A stretch of DNA of 49,130 bases from Thermoleophilia bacterium (GTDB taxonomy: Bacteria > Actinomycetota > Thermoleophilia > Miltoncostaeales > Miltoncostaeaceae): NCBI GenBank assembly GCA_025455865.1, contig JALOLS010000003.1, forward strand, positions 1 through 49,130. Direction: 5' to 3'. The notes beneath the pieces are model-generated. The model made no database searches and was not told where the DNA came from. It saw only the letters and a list, made by a program, of their open reading frames with translations. Positions 8,441 to 19,200 of the stretch are shown here, in pieces. Position 1 is the stretch's first letter; every line of letters starts with the position of its first letter. A program made the position numbers and the translations under genes.

Positions 8441-9433
8441 TCAGCCCCCGATCCGGCTCATCGGCCGCTCGACCCGGCGGCCGGCGCCGATGGCGTGCCC
8501 GGCGGGCTTGCCGAGCACCGCCGCGCGCACGATGCGCTCGAGCTCCGCGTCGGCGGCGCCCGCGCGCATGGGCCCGGCGAGATCGGTCTCCTCGTCGGAG
8601 AACAGGCAGGTCCGAAGGCGCCCGTCCGGCGTGATCCGCAGGCGGTCGCAGGTCGCGCAGAACGGCTCGGACACCGAGCTCACGAACTCGAGCGCGCCGC
8701 CGGGGCGGTCGGCGAACCGCCAGCGGGTGGCGGTGTCGGAGGGCCGCTCGCGCCCCAGCGGGATCAGCGGCCAGCGCGCGTCGATCATCGCCCGCACCTC
8801 GGCCCCGCGCACCACGTCGGCCGGGCGCCAGGCGCGGTCGGCGTCGAGGGGCATGGCCTCGACGAACCGCATGACCACCGGCCGCCGCCGCGCCATCTCG
8901 GCCAGCGGGAGGACGTCGGCCTCCCCGATCCCGCGCAGCAGCACCGCGTTCACCTTCAGCGGGCGCAGGCCGGGGTGGGCCAGGGCGGCGTCGATGCCGG
9001 CGAGCACCCGGTCCAGGTCGCGCCGGCGGGTGACCCGGGCGAAGCGGTCCGGGTCGAGGCTGTCCAGGCTCACGTTCAGCCGGGCGAGCCCGGCCCGGGC
9101 CAGGTCGTCGGCCAGCGGGGCCAGCAGCACCCCGTTGGTGGTCATCGAGACCTCACAGACGCCCGGGACCGCGCTGATCCGGCCCACCAGCCCGGCCACC
9201 CCCGGCCGCACCAGCGGCTCGCCCCCGGTCACCCGCACGCGGCCGGCCCCGAGCCGGGCGAACAGGCCGACCAGCCGCACGGCCTCGTCGTCGGTCAGGA
9301 GCTCGCCGGGCGCGCACCAGGGCAGGCCCTCGGCCGGCATGCAGTAGCGGCAGCGCAGGTTGCACCGGTCGGTCACCGAGAGGCGGAGCGCCCGGTGGAC
9401 GCGGCCGAAGCCGTCGGCCAGCGGCGCGCTCAC
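8441..9433 (-). CDS. moaA: GTP 3',8-cyclase MoaA (molybdenum cofactor synthesis)
   Basis: Radical SAM enzyme that rearranges GTP to 3',8-cyclo-GTP, the first step of molybdopterin synthesis, together with MoaC. The N-terminal 4Fe-4S site is C24-x3-C28-x2-C31 (CNLRCRYC). The C-terminal cluster is CATC...C in CATCDRLRITPDGRLRTCLF. The GGEP strand and the conserved C-terminal double glycine (MSRIGG) are present, so all known essential elements are intact in 330 residues. The GTG start overlaps the dehydrogenase stop (ATGTGA). Unusually, it is the last gene of a CoA-ester cassette rather than lying with other moa genes. The coupling hints that a molybdenum enzyme serves the same pathway. Confidence 0.96.
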   Translation of the reverse strand: MSAPLADGFGRVHRALRLSVTDRCNLRCRYCMPAEGLPWCAPGELLTDDEAVRLVGLFARLGAGRVRVTGGEPLVRPGVAGLVGRISAVPGVCEVSMTTNGVLLAPLADDLARAGLARLNVSLDSLDPDRFARVTRRRDLDRVLAGIDAALAHPGLRPLKVNAVLLRGIGEADVLPLAEMARRRPVVMRFVEAMPLDADRAWRPADVVRGAEVRAMIDARWPLIPLGRERPSDTATRWRFADRPGGALEFVSSVSEPFCATCDRLRITPDGRLRTCLFSDEETDLAGPMRAGAADAELERIVRAAVLGKPAGHAIGAGRRVERPMSRIGG

Positions 9434-10170
9434 ATCACCACCCCGCCGTTGACCGAGAGCGACTGCCCGGTGATGAAGCCGGCGGCCGGCGAGGCCAGGA
9501 AGGCGACGGCCTCGGCCACCTCCTCCGGCCGCGCGGCCCGGCGCATCGGCGCCGCGCGGACCGCCCCCTCCACGATCCGCCGGCCCACCTCGTCCTCGCG
9601 CAGGCGCGCCTCGAAGGCCGTCTCGGTGACCGCGGGCGACACGCAGTTCACCCGGATGCCGTCGCGCGCGAGCTCCCGGGCGATCGACTTGCTGAAGGCG
9701 ACCACCGCGGCCTTGGCCCCGGCGTAGACCGCCTCGCCCCAGCCGCCCACCCGGGCGGTGTCGCTCGCGATCGACACGACCGCCGAGCCCGGGCCGGCCG
9801 CGCGCAGGGCCGGGATCGCGGCGTGGGTGGTGGCGAGCACGCCGCGGTAGTTGATGGCGACGATCCGGTCCCAGTCGGCCGGGGTGGTGTCGGCGAAGAG
9901 CGCCGGCCGGTCCCAGCCGGCGTTGTTGACCAGCACGTCCAGGCGCCCGTGGGCCATGAGCACGGCGGCGACCGCCCGCGCCCCGGCGTCGGGGTCGGTC
10001 ACGTCGTGCTCGACCCCGGTGCAGCCGAGCCCGGCGGCCAGCTCGGTGACCTGGGGGTCCAGGTCGGTGAGCACCACCCGCGCGCCCCGGCCGAGCAGGG
10101 CGGCCGCCACCGCCCGGCCGATGCCGCCGGCGCCGCCGGTGACCATGCAGACCCGGCCGTCCATGCTCAT
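9430..10170 (-). CDS. SDR-family dehydrogenase, BadH-like
   Basis: This NAD(P)-dependent short-chain dehydrogenase has 246 residues. Motifs are TGGAGGIG (cofactor loop), NNAG, the catalytic serine in SIASD, and YxxxK as YAGAK, with FITGQSLSVNGG near the end. The string NNAGWD and the segment SIASDTARVGGWGEAVYAGAKAAVVAFSK region closely resemble BadH, the 2-hydroxycyclohexanecarboxyl-CoA dehydrogenase of alicyclic acid degradation, as I recall that family. The neighbours fit a CoA-ester substrate: aryl-CoA ligase and thioesterase upstream, all overlapping by about 4 bp. A general 3-hydroxyacyl-CoA dehydrogenase is the alternative. An ATG 6 nt further in (10164) could also be the start. Confidence 0.85.
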   Translation of the reverse strand: MSMDGRVCMVTGGAGGIGRAVAAALLGRGARVVLTDLDPQVTELAAGLGCTGVEHDVTDPDAGARAVAAVLMAHGRLDVLVNNAGWDRPALFADTTPADWDRIVAINYRGVLATTHAAIPALRAAGPGSAVVSIASDTARVGGWGEAVYAGAKAAVVAFSKSIARELARDGIRVNCVSPAVTETAFEARLREDEVGRRIVEGAVRAAPMRRAARPEEVAEAVAFLASPAAGFITGQSLSVNGGVVM

Positions 10171-10583
10171 GCCCCGGCCGCCTGGAAGCGCTGGAAGGTG
10201 CCCTGCCCCACGGCGACCACGCGGTCGCGCGCGTCGCGGGCCTCGGCGGCGGCGACGAACAGCCGGCGCCCCTCGGTGACCACCCAGCCGCGGGCCGAGA
10301 GCTCACCCGGCGGGGCGGGCGCCGTGAAGTTCAGCTTCATCTCGATCGTCGCGCAGCCCTCCTCCGGGGGTTGGCGGGCCAGGATGGCGAGGCCCATGGC
10401 GGCGTCGATCAGCCCGGCGAGCACCCCGCCGTGCGCGGTGCCGTAGGCCTGCAGGAGCTCCGGGGTCACCGTGAGGGCGAAGCGGCTGCCGTCGGCTCCG
10501 GCCTCGAGCACGCGCATGTTCGTCGTGCGGTAGTAGCCGCAGGCGTTCCAGCGTTCCAGGAGGTCGTCGGGGGGGCGGGTCAC
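10167..10583 (-). CDS. PaaI-family hotdog thioesterase
   Basis: This 138-residue single hotdog-fold protein should hydrolyse acyl- or aryl-CoA thioesters. The family signature GTAHGGVLAGLIDAAMGLAI is present, with HGG and the downstream aspartate that activates water. A second conserved region, ATIEMKLNFTAPAPPGELSARG, follows. The start is GTG 10583, which overlaps the ligase stop (ACGTGA), and the stop overlaps the dehydrogenase start (ATGA). In the pathway it may recycle CoA from dead-end aromatic or hydroxylated CoA esters, as PaaI does in phenylacetate breakdown. Confidence 0.88.
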   Translation of the reverse strand: MTRPPDDLLERWNACGYYRTTNMRVLEAGADGSRFALTVTPELLQAYGTAHGGVLAGLIDAAMGLAILARQPPEEGCATIEMKLNFTAPAPPGELSARGWVVTEGRRLFVAAAEARDARDRVVAVGQGTFQRFQAAGA

Positions 10584-12100
10584 GTGGCTCCTTCGGGGGA
10601 TGGTGCCGGAACGGCCAGGGCCGCGCGGGCGATCTCGCGGACGGTGCCGCGGTTGACCTTGCCGGATGCGCTCGTGGGCAGCCGGTCGACCACCCGGAAG
10701 GCCCGCGGCACCTCGTGCACGGCCAGGCCCGCGCGGCATCGGGCCGCGAGCCGGGCGTCCAGGTCGGCCGGGCCGGCCGGCGCCCCGACCACCGCCACCA
10801 GGCGGAGCAGCCCCTCGGCGTCCTCCACCCCGGTCACGACCACCTCGCTCACCGCGGGGTCGGCCATCAGGGCGGCCTCGACCCGGGCCGGGTCGACCCA
10901 CAGCGCGCCGACCTTGACCCGGTCGCCCGCCCGCCCGAGCACCGTGTGGCTGCCGTCCGCCTCGCGGCGGACCAGGTCGCCGGTGTGCAGCCATCCGCCG
11001 GCCAGGGCGCGGTCCGACGCCGCCGGGTCGCCCAGGTAGCCGGACATGAGCGTCGGCCCCCGGACCAGCAGCTCGCCCTCGTGCCCGTCCGGGTCCTGCC
11101 CGGGCAGCGGGACGATCCTCAGCCGGTACCCGGCCACCGGCCAGCCCACCGTCCCCGGCCGCGGCGACCCGGGCCGGTCGGAGCAGTAGAGGTTGGTCGC
11201 CTCGCTCGACCCCAGGCCGTTCACCAGCCGCAGGCCGGTCGCGCGCTCCACCGACGCCCACACCGCGGGCGGCAGCGGCTCGCCCGCGGCCACCGCCAGC
11301 CGCACGCCGGCGAAGGCGTCCCGCCCGATCCGCCCCTCGGCCACGTGCCGGGCGAGCCGGGCCCAGGAGGTCGGCACGCCGAACAGCGCGGTGGCACCGC
11401 CCTCGGTGCAGGCCCGGGCCACGCCGGCGGGGCTCGCCTGGTCCGGGGCGATCCAGGCGGCGGCGCCGGCCGCGAGGGGGAAGTAGCAGGTGTTCCCGAG
11501 GCCGTAGGAGGTGGCCAGGCCGGCGACCGAGGCGGTCACGTCGCCGGGACCGAGCCGCAGCACCCGCCGGCCGTAGGTGGCCGCGCAGGCCGGGATGTCG
11601 CGGTGGCGGTGGACCGCCCACTTGCTCGGCCCGGTCGTGCCCGAGGTGAGCAGCAGGTAGGCCGGGTCGTCGCCGGAGGTCGCCGCGAGGCCGGGGTCCA
11701 GGCGGTCCTCGGCGGCGGCGGCCGCGACCTCCGCGGCCGGCGCGCGGAGGATCCCGGGGGCGAGGGAGGGGTCGTCGGAGAGGATCAGCCGCGCGCCCAG
11801 GCGGGCGAGCGCGGGGGCGAGGCGGTCGCGCGGGTGCGCGGGGCTCGCGAGCGCCGCCACCGCCCCGATCCGCAGCACGGCGAGGAACGCGGCCACCCAG
11901 GCCGGCGAGTCGGGCATCGCGATCGCCACCACATCGCCGCGGCGCACCCCGCGCCCGGCGAGCCATCCGGCGAGCGCGCCGCAGGACCGGGCCAGCCGCG
12001 CCCGGTCCCAGGCCTCCTCGGGGGTCACGATCGCCACCAGCGCGGCGTCCCGGTCCAGCCGGTCGTCGAGGAGGGCCCCGCAGGTGTTCAGCCGCCGCAC
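10580..12100 (-). CDS. Benzoate-CoA ligase-like acyl-CoA synthetase
   Basis: ANL-superfamily adenylate-forming enzyme that activates a carboxylic acid with ATP and CoA. Motifs in order are LLLTSGTTGPSKWAVHRH (P-loop), NGLGSSEATNLYCSDRPG (motif A5), GWLHTGD, GRAGDRVKVGALWVDPARVE (hinge) and LPTSASGKVNRG with the C-terminal catalytic lysine. The A5 region, G-SSE---LY-S-RPG, and the AVHxH after the P-loop resemble benzoate and 4-hydroxybenzoate CoA ligases more than fatty-acid ligases. The start is uncertain. GTG 12100 gives 506 residues with a usual N-terminus, while TTG or other codons further up remain possible. It is first of four overlapping genes and divergent from the cupin gene at 12188. 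Confidence 0.85.
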   Translation of the reverse strand: MRRLNTCGALLDDRLDRDAALVAIVTPEEAWDRARLARSCGALAGWLAGRGVRRGDVVAIAMPDSPAWVAAFLAVLRIGAVAALASPAHPRDRLAPALARLGARLILSDDPSLAPGILRAPAAEVAAAAAEDRLDPGLAATSGDDPAYLLLTSGTTGPSKWAVHRHRDIPACAATYGRRVLRLGPGDVTASVAGLATSYGLGNTCYFPLAAGAAAWIAPDQASPAGVARACTEGGATALFGVPTSWARLARHVAEGRIGRDAFAGVRLAVAAGEPLPPAVWASVERATGLRLVNGLGSSEATNLYCSDRPGSPRPGTVGWPVAGYRLRIVPLPGQDPDGHEGELLVRGPTLMSGYLGDPAASDRALAGGWLHTGDLVRREADGSHTVLGRAGDRVKVGALWVDPARVEAALMADPAVSEVVVTGVEDAEGLLRLVAVVGAPAGPADLDARLAARCRAGLAVHEVPRAFRVVDRLPTSASGKVNRGTVREIARAALAVPAPSPEGAT

Positions 12101-12187: not shown

Positions 12188-12859
12188 ATGGGCGTCTCGC
12201 AGGGCGCGATCGACGCGCTCGGTCGCGACCACGACGCGTGGTTGGTGCAGGCTCGGGTGGCGCGGACGGGTCCCCCCGGCGCGGCGGTCGCGTTCCTGGC
12301 CGGCGACGGGCTGGGGCACGTCCGCGTGGTGGCCGAGCAGGTCCTGCCCGCCCTCGTGGCCGGGCACCCGGACCTGGTCGCCCGGTGGGCGCTCGCCCGG
12401 GCGCGGCTGGACGCGGCCGCCGCGACGAAGGACGCCCGCCTGATCGCCCGGGGGATGGTCCGCCTGATCGCGATCGAGGCGCGCGAGGTGCTCCCGGCCG
12501 CCCGGACGACGGCGCCTCCCGGGGGCCTGGGCCTGGCCGGCCGGCCGGCCGAGGCCGGGCTCGTGGTGGCCCCGACCGGCGGCCCCGCCTGGGGGCGGGC
12601 CACCCGCGACCTCAACCTCACCCTGGTCGTATGGCCTCCGGCGGGCGGCGTCGGCCGGCACGTGAACGCCGAGCGCGACGTGCTGGTCGTGCCGGTCGCG
12701 GGCTCGGCCACGCTCACGGTCGACGGCGAGGACCACGTCCTGCGCCCGGGCGTGGTGGCGGTGGTCCGGCGCGGCGCGGCGAGGTCGATCGTCGCCGGTT
12801 CCGAGGGCGTGCGGTACCTGTCGGCCCACCGCCGCGACATTTCTTCCGCGGATGCCTAG
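12188..12859 (+). CDS. Protein with unknown N-terminal helical domain and C-terminal cupin-like domain
   Basis: This 223-residue protein has two visible parts. Residues 1-120 are mostly alpha-helical and unrecognised, with a segment AALARARLDAAAATKDARLIARGMVRLIAIEAREVLP-like in composition. Residues about 135-215 read as a cupin-type beta-barrel (TLVVWPPAGGVGRHVNAERDVLVVPVAG region, then DGEDHVLRPGVVAVVRRGAARSI). Of the usual metal ligands, H and E are present in RHVNAERD. The start ATG follows GGGAGGG at 12176-12182. It is the first gene of a co-oriented set with DUF2249, DUF59 and a heme-copper-oxidase-like protein, where small cupins recur, and it may bind a metal or small ligand there. 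Confidence 0.7.
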   Translation: MGVSQGAIDALGRDHDAWLVQARVARTGPPGAAVAFLAGDGLGHVRVVAEQVLPALVAGHPDLVARWALARARLDAAAATKDARLIARGMVRLIAIEAREVLPAARTTAPPGGLGLAGRPAEAGLVVAPTGGPAWGRATRDLNLTLVVWPPAGGVGRHVNAERDVLVVPVAGSATLTVDGEDHVLRPGVVAVVRRGAARSIVAGSEGVRYLSAHRRDISSADA

Positions 12860-12915
12860 ACAAACCTGCCCGGGCGTGTGACGATCGTGCCGAGTCGAGC
12901 CGGGAGGATGCGCTG

Positions 12916-13461
12916 ATGGACGCGACCACGACGATCGACGCGGCGATGCCACCGCCGGGCCTGGACATCGTCCGGCTCGATGTGCGGCCGCTCCTCGCCC
13001 GGGGTGAGGAGCCCTTCCGGGCGATCATGGATGCGGTGGACGGCCTGGGCGCGGGACAGGCGCTCGCCCTGCGGACACCCTTCGACCCGGTCCCGCTCCA
13101 CCGGGTGATGGCCGGCAAGGGCTTCCGGCGCCACACGGTCGCGCGCGCGCCGGACGACCTGGAGACCGTGTACTGGCCCGAGGCCGCCGACGCGCCGGCC
13201 GCGCCGGCCCCGGCGCACGCGGACGTGCCGGAGCCGGAGGCCCGGGTCGAGCTCGACGTGCGCGGCCTGGCGCCGCCCGAGCCCATGGAGCGCACCCTGG
13301 CCGCCCTCGAGGCCCTGCCCGTGGGCGAGGCGCTCGTGCAGGTGAACGACCGCGTCCCCGCGTTCCTCCTGCCGCTGCTGGACGAGCAGGGCTGGGCGTA
13401 CCGCATCAGCGCCGACGACCGCGGCACGGTGACCACCATCTGGCGGGACCGGCCGTCATGA
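12916..13461 (+). CDS. Tandem DUF2249 protein
   Basis: This 181-residue protein contains two DUF2249 (TusA-like fold) domains joined by an Ala/Pro linker. Domain 1 starts LDVRPLLARGEEPF and ends LETVYWPE. Domain 2 starts LDVRGLAPPEPMERT and ends GTVTTIWRD. Both keep the LDVR opening and the central strand that ends in a Pro-containing loop. DUF2249 proteins are often encoded with nitrite/NO metabolism, cupin and hemerythrin genes, but their chemistry is not settled. Unlike TusA, no conserved cysteine is seen, so sulfur relay is unlikely. The ATG follows GGGAGG (12902-12907). The stop overlaps the DUF59 start by 4 bp. Confidence 0.85.
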   Translation: MDATTTIDAAMPPPGLDIVRLDVRPLLARGEEPFRAIMDAVDGLGAGQALALRTPFDPVPLHRVMAGKGFRRHTVARAPDDLETVYWPEAADAPAAPAPAHADVPEPEARVELDVRGLAPPEPMERTLAALEALPVGEALVQVNDRVPAFLLPLLDEQGWAYRISADDRGTVTTIWRDRPS

Positions 13462-13760
13462 CCGAGGACGAGGCCTGGGCGGCGCTCGCGCGCGTGGTCG
13501 ATCCCGAGCTCGGCGTCGACATCGTCGAGCTCGGCCTGGTCTACGGCCTGGAGGTCGGGCCGGAGCGGGTGAAGGTGACGATGACCCTGACCAGTCAGGG
13601 CTGCCCCCTGCACGGGGTGATCGTGGACGGGGTCGAGCGCGCCCTGGAGCGGCCCGGCGGCCCCGACGTCGAGATCGAGATGGTCTGGGATCCGCCCTGG
13701 GACCCGGACCGGATCGGATCCTCCGGCCGGCGGGCGCTCGGGGACCCGACCACGACATGA
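13458..13760 (+). CDS. DUF59 / MIP18-family iron-sulfur cluster assembly factor
   Basis: This 100-residue protein is one MIP18-type domain, the family of PaaD, SufT and the N-terminal part of Mrp/ApbC, which help mature Fe-S proteins. Diagnostic features are DPELGVDIVELGLVYGLEV, then VTMTLTSQGCPLH with the conserved cysteine, and the closing MVWDPPWDPDRI. It is coupled on both sides: ATGA with DUF2249 upstream and ATGA with the membrane protein downstream. The tight coupling suggests that it serves a metalloprotein of this operon rather than general Fe-S repair. Confidence 0.9.
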   Translation: MTEDEAWAALARVVDPELGVDIVELGLVYGLEVGPERVKVTMTLTSQGCPLHGVIVDGVERALERPGGPDVEIEMVWDPPWDPDRIGSSGRRALGDPTTT

Positions 13761-15097
13761 GCGCGCGCGGCCGGTGCACGCCGGGCGCGCGCACGCTGGA
13801 GCGGCAGCGCGCGGTCGGCGGTCCCCCGTGGGCCCTGCCCTCCGGCGCGCTGCTCGCCGCGTCGATGGCCCAGGTCGCCGGTGCGATCGCCCTCGCGGTG
13901 GCCGCGCGCGACCTGGCGTCCGGCGCCGTCTACGGATCGGCGTCGCTGGTGACCGCGCACCTGTACGGCCTGGCCTTCCTCACGCTGGCGATCCTCGGCG
14001 CGATGCTGCAGCTCGTGCCGGTCGTGATCCGCCAGTCCGTGGCCGGGCCGTGGCCCGCGGCGGGCGCCGTCACCGGGGTGGGCCTGGGTGGCGTGCTGCT
14101 CGCGGCGGGCCTCGGCACCGGCGCCGCCGGCCTCATCGCGGCCGGCGGCACGCTGGTGGTGGCCGGCGGCGCGCTGATCGGGGCGTTCCTGGTCCGGGCG
14201 CTGTGGCGCGCGTGGCGGGCGGGCACCCTCGGCGCGGCCGGGGCCGGGATCGCGCTGGCCACCACATGGCTCTGGGTGGTGCTCGCGATGGGCGGGCTCA
14301 TGGCGGCCAACCGGGTGGAGCCCTTCCTCGCGACCGACCGGCTGCGCCTGATCGCCGCGCACGCCGCGGTGGCCCTGGTCGGCTGGATCGGCGGCACGAT
14401 CGTGGCGGTGGCCCTGAAGCTCGGGCCGATGCTGGCGCTCGCCCACGGCCACCCGGTGGCGCCCGGCACCTGGGCGATGGCGTGCTGGAACGCCTCGGTC
14501 CCGCCGCTCGCCCTCGGGCTCCTCGTCGGCGCGGGGCCGCTGGTCGCGGCCGGCGCGGCGCTGCTCACCATCGCCTGCGCGCTGGCCCTGTGGTTCACGA
14601 TCGGCGTGCTCCGCCACCGGCGCCGGCGGGCCGAGGCGCCCATCGCGCACCTGGTCCTCGGGACCGCCGTCGCCGGCGGGGCCGCGGTGGCCGGCCTGCT
14701 CGCCGCGCTCGGGGCGCTCGACCCCCTGGAGGTGGCCGTGCCGGTGGCGCTCGCCCTGATGGTCGGCCTGGGGGCCGGGGTGACCTCCGGGCACCTGTTC
14801 AAGGTCGTCCCGATGCTGGTGTGGACCGGCCGCTACGCGCACCTGGCCGGGATCGGGGGCGCCCCGAAGCTCGCCGACCTCTACCCGGCGCCGCTCGCGA
14901 CCGCGGAGGTGGCGCTCTTCACGCCGGGCCTCGCGGCGCTCCTGGCCGGCGTGGCCGGCGGGGTCGGATGGCTGGCCCTCGCCGGCGCGCTCGCGCTGGT
15001 CGCGGCAGCACTGTGCGTGGTGGTCGCCGTGCTGGTCGTCGTGGCCGGCCGCCCGCGCCCGGCCGCCGCACCGCTCAGGCCCGCGCCCGCCGCCTAG
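13757..15097 (+). CDS. Polytopic heme-copper-oxidase/NnrS-like membrane protein
   Basis: This 446-residue integral membrane protein has about 12 predicted helices. It carries histidines placed at helix ends as in heme-copper oxidase subunit I and NnrS: TAHLYGLAFLTLAILGAM (H68), AHAAVALVGWIGGTIVAV with KLGPM, and TSGHLFKVVPMLVWTGRYA. There is no HH pair and no GHPxxY motif, so a complete CuB site is not visible. It is therefore not a standard oxidase, but it could bind heme or copper and handle NO, O2 or a metal. The upstream DUF2249 and DUF59 genes overlap in series. Its TAG overlaps the stop of the converging gene through a shared CTAG. Confidence 0.65.
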   Translation: MSARGRCTPGARTLERQRAVGGPPWALPSGALLAASMAQVAGAIALAVAARDLASGAVYGSASLVTAHLYGLAFLTLAILGAMLQLVPVVIRQSVAGPWPAAGAVTGVGLGGVLLAAGLGTGAAGLIAAGGTLVVAGGALIGAFLVRALWRAWRAGTLGAAGAGIALATTWLWVVLAMGGLMAANRVEPFLATDRLRLIAAHAAVALVGWIGGTIVAVALKLGPMLALAHGHPVAPGTWAMACWNASVPPLALGLLVGAGPLVAAGAALLTIACALALWFTIGVLRHRRRRAEAPIAHLVLGTAVAGGAAVAGLLAALGALDPLEVAVPVALALMVGLGAGVTSGHLFKVVPMLVWTGRYAHLAGIGGAPKLADLYPAPLATAEVALFTPGLAALLAGVAGGVGWLALAGALALVAAALCVVVAVLVVVAGRPRPAAAPLRPAPAA

Positions 15098-15585
15098 GAC
15101 TCCTCGCCGGCCTGCCGGGCGGCGTGGGCGGCGCGCAGCCGGCGCGCCTCCTCGGGCGAGAGCGCCGCGCGCACCCGGGGGATGATGGTCACGGCGAACG
15201 CGAGCGCCCCGAGCGCCGGCAGCACCGCGGCGACCCCGAGCAGCACCCGCCAGGCCGTGGCGGGGTCGGCGCCGGTCGTCTGCGGCTCGGCCAGCAGGCG
15301 CAGCAGCAGCCCGGCGTTGATCAGCCCGAAGGCGATCCAGCCGCCCTCCCGGCCCGGCCGCCGGCCCTGCACGCGGGGGAACATCCAGTACGCCACGCCG
15401 ATCACCAGCATGAGCAGGAAGCCCATGAGCAGCACATGGGCGTGCAGCGACGGCCACGGCGGCCCCGGGGTGAAGCCCCGCACGGCGTCGTGCACGAGCA
15501 TCCACGAGCCCATGGCCATGCCCCCGACCAGGTAGACCAGGGCCGCACGTACACACCAGCGGCTGAGGGTCGGCATCGCTCCCAT
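15094..15585 (-). CDS. Small heme-copper-oxidase-like membrane protein
   Basis: This 163-residue protein has four likely helices. The second begins with LHAHVLLMGFLLMLVIGVAYWMFPRV, the HxH-x-x-x-GF...G.xYxxxP pattern typical of one helix of CcoN/NorB-like subunits. A further histidine lies in the first helix (LVHDAV). It is far too short for an oxidase, so it probably represents a minimal heme-binding four-helix unit that works alone or beside the 446-residue protein facing it. The C-terminal 25 residues are charged. The start at 15585 has no clear SD. ATG 15576 is an alternative. Confidence 0.65.
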   Translation of the reverse strand: MGAMPTLSRWCVRAALVYLVGGMAMGSWMLVHDAVRGFTPGPPWPSLHAHVLLMGFLLMLVIGVAYWMFPRVQGRRPGREGGWIAFGLINAGLLLRLLAEPQTTGADPATAWRVLLGVAAVLPALGALAFAVTIIPRVRAALSPEEARRLRAAHAARQAGEES

Positions 15586-16554: not shown

Positions 16555-18759
<2,205 letters not shown>

Positions 18760-19200
18760 TCAGGTGCGGGGGTGCGAGGCCGGCCCGGTGCATCCCGGGC
18801 ACAGGCCCCAGTGGGTGACCTCGGTCTCGTCGATGGCGTATCCGTGGCCCGCAGGGGCGGTCATGCACGGGGCGTCGCCGACGGCGCAGTCGATGTCGGC
18901 GACCGCACCGCAGGCGCGGCAGACCACGTGGTGGTGGTTGTCGCCCACCCGGGCCTCGTAGCGGGCCACCGATCCGGCGGGCTGGATGCGCCGCACCAGG
19001 CCGGCGGTCGTGAGCGCCCGCAGCACGTCGTAGACCGCCTGGGTCGACACGCTCCCGAGCTCGGCCCGGGCGGCGCCCACGATGGTCTCGGTGTCGGCGT
19101 GCGGATGGGCGTGCACCGCGCCGAGCACGGCGACCCGGGGCCGTGTCACGCGAAGCGCCGACCGGCGCAGCACGTCCTCGGCGTCGGGGGCGGCGGCCAC
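18760..19200 (-). CDS. furA: Fur-family regulator, FurA-like
   Basis: This 146-residue metal-dependent repressor has a winged helix (LRVTRPRVAVLGAVHAHPHADTETI...VSTQAVYDVLRAL) and a dimerisation domain with the regulatory-site string DNHHHVVCRACG. A C-terminal CPGC completes, with CRAC, a structural zinc site. It lies directly upstream of katG on the same strand, the arrangement of mycobacterial furA-katG and streptomycete furS-cpeB, in which the regulator represses its own operon and is released by oxidative stress. The GTG start at 19200 lies only 7 nt after a -10 box and has no SD, so the message is probably leaderless. The gene begins at the promoter described at 19208-19242. Confidence 0.92.
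   Translation of the reverse strand: MAAAPDAEDVLRRSALRVTRPRVAVLGAVHAHPHADTETIVGAARAELGSVSTQAVYDVLRALTTAGLVRRIQPAGSVARYEARVGDNHHHVVCRACGAVADIDCAVGDAPCMTAPAGHGYAIDETEVTHWGLCPGCTGPASHPRT

Follow-up and report, generated by a model that had tools for sequence, protein, structure and literature searches.

The window analysed here is a stretch of 49,130 nucleotides from a Thermoleophilia bacterium (assembly GCA_025455865.1, contig JALOLS010000003.1, positions 1 to 49,130). It carries a set of five genes encoding a cupin protein, a protein with tandem DUF2249 domains (DUF2249x2), a DUF59 protein, a membrane protein with 12 transmembrane (TM) helices (TM12) and, facing these, one with four (TM4). The set is genuine and conserved, is linked to denitrification and represents a variant form of the drp operon of Thermus; its membrane parts are uncharacterised. 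We read it as a Drp-type denitrification accessory module in its actinobacterial-type version, with a probability of roughly 0.6. Nitrogen-oxide sensing combined with enzyme upkeep is its most likely role because the set recurs beside genes for nitrate and nitrite respiration in widely separated bacteria. A preliminary description of the window had proposed a functional unit for a redox metal centre or for handling nitric oxide (NO) or O2. The functional unit holds up: the core of the gene set is conserved across the host family, rhizobia and Thermus, and elsewhere it lies beside nitrogen-oxide respiration genes (nar, nirK and nor). However, the remark that standard pathways do not explain the set was too strong. 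DUF2249 has already been tied to denitrification, through DrpA and DrpB of Thermus (passages of PMC6282519) and through Haloferax, in which all four DUF2249 proteins are induced during denitrification (PMC11218638).

The relationship with Thermus shows in gene content and sequence identity. T. thermophilus AA2-2, SNM1-7 and TF19 share an uninterrupted six-gene order, drpA-drpB-TM4-protoglobin-TM12-DUF59. This order is taken from annotation, with hidden Markov model confirmation of the families in AA2-2 and SNM1-7; the middle genes of TF19 are annotated as hypothetical. In the two confirmed strains the TM4 counterpart is a protein of 144 amino acids (aa) (E 8e-19 to 1e-18) and the TM12 counterpart one of 383 aa (E 3e-43 to 8e-43). 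The window proteins are 53% (DUF59), 41% (TM4) and 30% (TM12) identical to those of the Thermus operon, and DUF2249x2 is homologous to DrpB residues 87-271 with 35-36% identity. Like DrpB, it has two DUF2249 domains and the operon partners TM4, TM12 and DUF59. Apart from the cupin gene, every gene of the set has a homologue in the Thermus operon, DrpB being matched over two-thirds of its length. In contrast, the window set has no DUF1858 domain on DUF2249x2, no protoglobin gene and no nar genes alongside, includes a cupin gene in addition and is ordered differently. The host does encode a DrpA homologue, a lone DUF2249 gene on contig C13 (locus L021, 8910-9140) whose product is 59% identical to Thermus DrpA. 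That gene sits at a contig end, and the break may have removed other partners.

In PMC7694296 drpAB is described as a two-gene operon, and the four downstream genes are not named in those passages of PMC6282519 and PMC7694296 that were searched by terms. The strain of the drp studies is NAR1, in which the drp cluster follows narGHJIKT and a transposase gene lies between drpB and TM4 (L140, 9675-10520). This transposase may have hidden the full extent of the operon. DrpA is reported to be periplasmic, and DrpB to be cytoplasmic and partly membrane-bound without TM segments; Thermus has no NarX/NarL, its nitrate sensing is unsettled and there is no known link between DrpA and DrpB (PMC6282519, PMC7694296). 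Loss of DrpB makes the nar and dnr promoters constitutive, and a drpAB double mutant still produces NarG, at roughly one-tenth of the activity, and loses nitrate control (passages of PMC6282519). The comparison places a DUF59 protein and a pair of oxidase-like membrane proteins in the drp operon, and ties this operon to the nirK islands of rhizobia and to actinobacterial genomes that carry nirK. TM12, TM4 and DUF59 are therefore concrete candidates for the DrpA-DrpB link, and for the role of the widespread, uncharacterised DUF2249.

The association extends to the class of the host. Among 199 genomes of Thermoleophilia, 15 have TM12 relatives, whose neighbourhoods were surveyed with local profiles. 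DUF2249 is present in 12 of these 15, compared with 25 of the 199 overall (Fisher p = 3e-10), and NirK (at least 250 bits) in 9, compared with 36 overall (p = 2e-4). These tests treat genomes as independent though they are related; restricting them to the host family gives 2e-5 (DUF2249) and 2e-3 (NirK). Half of the 16 class loci have DUF2249 and DUF59 within about 4 kb of TM12. The order DUF2249x2-DUF59-TM12 is found in four host-family members (L022-L025), three of which (L022, L023, L025) have a single DUF2249 gene after TM12. Other orders or fusions of the three occur at L029, L033 and L035, DUF59 and one DUF2249 lie near TM12 at L030, and in the wider phylum both families are near TM12 at L109 and L111-L113. 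NirK adjoins TM12 at L026, L027 and L109. Gene-neighbourhood co-occurrence had been suggested beforehand as a check; the association of TM12 with DUF2249 exceeds chance in the 199 genomes, and the trio with DUF59 recurs in distant bacteria. Recurrent neighbours include hemerythrin (L030, L034, L110, L111 and L113, with genes overlapping TM12 in the first two), protoglobin and a helix-turn-helix (HTH) regulator with three conserved cysteines, all of which fit the proposed role without proving it. The HTH regulators beside TM12, TM4 or NirK (L025, L026, L027, L030, L103, L109, L111, L113) share the pattern CPF...C..H.G...C, which could mark an Fe-S site resembling the one in SufR.

A further link was found in the nirK islands of Alphaproteobacteria. 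The DUF2249x2 query matched 170 plasmid records. A tblastn search of the plasmids with TM12 gave no match; the islands were found by the DUF2249 query and TM12 was recognised there by profiles. Sinorhizobium sp. CCBAU 05631 has, one after another, nor genes, hemN, DUF2249, a 452-aa hypothetical protein, DUF2249x2, a metal-sulfur cluster assembly factor, NnrS and nirK. The 452-aa protein is a TM12 (hhalign 99.7%, 356 columns), and the window DUF2249x2 is 42% identical to that of Sinorhizobium. The islands of S. meliloti pSymA and R. etli p42f resemble this arrangement, Gemmobacter has the TM12-DUF2249x2-DUF59 trio with NnrS and nirK, and Paracoccus has it near norB with pseudoazurin. As in the window, the three families are adjacent. 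However, the membrane gene comes first, the TM10 histidine is Gln, and NnrS and CRP/FNR genes lie nearby. A scan of the islands did not find TM4. The nirK region of Bradyrhizobium includes a DUF1858 gene, next to hemN2, that is strongly NnrR-dependent (PMC6710368). A 404-aa protein of Haloferax larsenii was also considered as TM12 and is not supported (hhalign 8.6%).

What kind of protein is TM12? No Pfam family matched it. An AlphaFold2 model, built from a three-sequence alignment, has 12 long helices (pTM 0.66, pLDDT 63). Its top 10 Foldseek matches in the PDB are all heme-copper oxidase (HCO) or NO reductase (NOR) chains, led by NO reductases and cbb3 oxidases, with TM-scores of about 0.5 and E values of 0.006-0.3. 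This suggests, with moderate confidence, an HCO fold at the superfamily level, strong in pattern and modest in score. The catalytic subunits of HCO and NOR have six histidines as metal or heme ligands, including an HH pair in TM7 and HxH in TM10. TM12 is not such a subunit (PF00115): there is no Pfam match, no TM7 pair and no TM10 HxH. Its histidines are at positions 68, 202, 230, 232, 287, 298, 346 and 362, with no adjacent-His CuB pair. His68 is kept in 23 of 23 relatives and His202 in 21 of 23. The preliminary description of a 12-TM protein with oxidase-like histidines and no CuB pair thus agrees with model, matches and histidine inventory. The structure prediction it proposed returned, for TM12, an oxidase-type fold, and its concern that the histidines of the membrane proteins might not be conserved is answered by these counts and by the HxH of TM4 (H48-A-H50 in the window), kept in 7 of 7 relatives. 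TM12 resembles NnrS (PF05940) in being a 12-TM, heme-related membrane protein of denitrification islands. It is not NnrS, to judge from the lack of a Pfam match and a profile comparison with the NnrS of the same island (probability 0.2%). A further likeness is with the HCO-homology (HCOH) proteins. As reportedly described by Pei et al. in 2014, these comprise 12-TM three-unit and 4-TM one-unit forms with few histidines, many linked to denitrification. TM12 and TM4 share the 12-TM and 4-TM oxidase-like build, the few histidines and the link with DUF2249. The Haloferax study cites Pei et al. 2014 for oxidase-homologous proteins associated with DUF2249 (PMC11218638).

TM4 has a weak Pfam COX1 match (E 1.3e-5) to profile positions 339-396, the last part of COX1. 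As in a single-unit HCOH protein, its four helices are similar to TM9-12 of HCO and carry the TM10 HxH. A fold predicted for it from one sequence was too poor for a structure search. The gene neighbours a cupin gene at L101 and L102 and forms part of an HTH-TM4-cupin group beside nirK at L103 and L105. Since it lies inside the Thermus operon and in the latter groups, TM4 belongs to the functional set, with loose linkage. The facing 4-TM protein with an HxH helix had been counted as part of the set from the outset, and its place in the same operon in Thermus bears this out.

The predictions of a tandem DUF2249 protein and an Fe-S assembly factor were correct, both Pfam matches being above cut-off; DUF59 matches FeS_assembly_P with E 5.5e-18 and 65.5 bits (cut-off 23.5) and has a GCP motif. 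In systems already characterised, DUF59 proteins serve in Fe-S maturation. DUF1858 was not found in the window DUF2249x2 by Pfam; it is present in Thermus DrpB, L029 and L033. A TusA-type sulfurtransferase role for the DUF2249 protein was rejected because the catalytic Cys is lacking: the TusA alignment is weak and, by eye, the CPxP Cys position is Pro in DVRGLAPPEPM. Neither the DUF2249 protein nor TM12 has a sequence relative among solved structures. The cupin protein had been taken for a two-domain cupin. It has a single, C-terminal cupin domain, covered by a Cupin_2 match below the Pfam cut-off (E 3e-5, residues 146-211 only); the helical N-terminal part does not form another cupin. The register of this N-terminus fits the HHE helices of hemerythrin, but the profile comparison gives a probability of 2.5% (2.7 bits) and the iron ligands are mostly missing. 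Free-standing cupins occur within the same gene set at L023, L025 and L029, and in Halomontanus one adjoins DUF2249 and nirK.

How might the parts work together? The biochemistry (heme binding, NO as a ligand, maturation of Fe-S or Mo enzymes) can be put only conditionally. TM12, possibly with TM4 as a split oxidase-like assembly, would carry a membrane heme able either to bind NO or to sense the nitrogen-oxide/O2 state. From the cytoplasm, the soluble DUF2249 protein would dock on it, and the DUF2249 and DUF59 proteins could relay the state to regulators and support the maturation or repair of NO-damaged Fe-S or Mo enzymes. More specifically, TM12 and TM4 could together make up a membrane receptor, heme-oxidase-like and split in two, that responds to NO or nitrogen oxides. 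They would then be the membrane partner that the Drp nitrate-sensing proteins have so far lacked, and would form with DUF2249 and DUF59 a widespread, undescribed complex for sensing and metalloenzyme upkeep. This is a tentative idea, which we think will probably not hold in full.

One alternative is that TM12 is itself an NnrS-type enzyme that detoxifies or binds NO, with DUF2249 and DUF59 merely assembling its metal or heme centre. The best structural matches are NO reductases, the host has NirK (contig C160) and no NO reductase recognisable by the COX1 profile, and hemerythrin genes overlap TM12 at two loci. Nevertheless, TM12 is missing the adjacent-His CuB/FeB site, NnrS forms a family of its own and is found alongside TM12 in the same islands, and the DrpA/DrpB mutants have regulatory phenotypes (passages of PMC6282519). 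We consider this explanation unlikely. The constitutive promoters after loss of DrpB, together with the HTH and protoglobin neighbours, would suit pure signalling, in which the module is a nitrate/NO sensor that feeds regulators and has no part in enzyme maturation or repair. Against this stand the NarG of the drpAB double mutant, left with about a tenth of its activity (passages of PMC6282519), and the presence of a member of a family of Fe-S maturation factors. We regard signalling alone as rather improbable. The least probable alternative by far starts from the genes directly upstream, an acyl-CoA ligase, a PaaI-type thioesterase and a short-chain dehydrogenase/reductase (SDR) (window 9430-12100, minus strand), divergent from the cupin operon. 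Perhaps the module serves this set, with DUF59 acting PaaD-like in an aromatic-acid pathway. At L026 (11303-13934) NirK-TM12 is adjoined by genes in a similar order, their SDR being 75% identical, and NCBIfam PaaD models match DUF59 below cut-off. However, no oxygenase genes were seen, no related SDR was found beside the operon at L022-L025, and in Thermus and rhizobia the DUF59-DUF2249-TM12 link holds although the ligase set is absent.

Several observations do not fit a Drp-type denitrification accessory module so well. No nitrate or nitrite reductase gene adjoins the operon in the window, the window DUF2249x2 is without the DUF1858 of DrpB, and several distant TM12 relatives have neither DUF2249 nor DUF59 nearby. 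TM4 is at a locus apart from the TM12 operon in three genomes (G031, G043, G109). The TM12 model is of moderate quality, with no Foldseek match below E 0.001, and His346, though kept in most relatives, is replaced by Met in Thermus and L110 and by Gln in Alphaproteobacteria. Finally, binding of heme, NO or metal by the module proteins is predicted only.

The gene parts are listed below. The four plus-strand genes and the facing fifth had been described beforehand, and the open reading frames were found as described, 4-bp overlaps included. Such overlaps join DUF2249x2 to DUF59 and DUF59 to TM12, the usual sign of a single transcript. The cupin gene is separated from DUF2249x2 by 56 bp, and TM4 is convergent with TM12, again with a 4-bp overlap.

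Table 1. Genes of the module and their positions in the window
Gene	Position	Strand	Product
Cupin protein	12188-12859	+	223 aa; helical N-terminus (~1-125) and C-terminal cupin (146-211)
Tandem DUF2249 (DUF2249x2)	12916-13461	+	181 aa; Pfam DUF2249 twice, E 5e-32
DUF59 (FeS_assembly_P; MIP18-SufT-PaaD type)	13458-13760	+	100 aa; TSQGCPL cysteine motif
TM12	13757-15097	+	446 aa; 12-helix membrane protein; His68 (TM2), His202 (TM6), His346 (TM10)
TM4	15094-15585	-	163 aa; 4-helix protein; H48-A-H50

In the host genome the COX1 profile recognises two oxidase subunits I, and hemerythrin was not found by Pfam profile. Contig C7 (L149, 5417-10056) encodes exported alpha and beta subunits that are weakly narG/narH-like; the narG-like gene falls below the narG cut-off and encodes a type II DMSO-reductase-family enzyme. 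Molybdenum-cofactor-type genes recur near TM12/TM4 loci (window 8441-9433, MoaA-like by sequence; L025 10603-16170; L106 3839-4666), which would fit a link with Mo enzymes. About 10 kb from the module, at 615-2710 on the minus strand of the window, lies a terminal oxidase subunit I gene (COX1 E 8.5e-68, GHPVVY helix), accompanied by a subunit II gene of apparent CuA type. Presumably this oxidase resembles a B-type oxygen reductase. On the other side, a putative KatG (catalase-peroxidase) gene is followed by one for a Fur-like regulator (16555-19200, minus strand).

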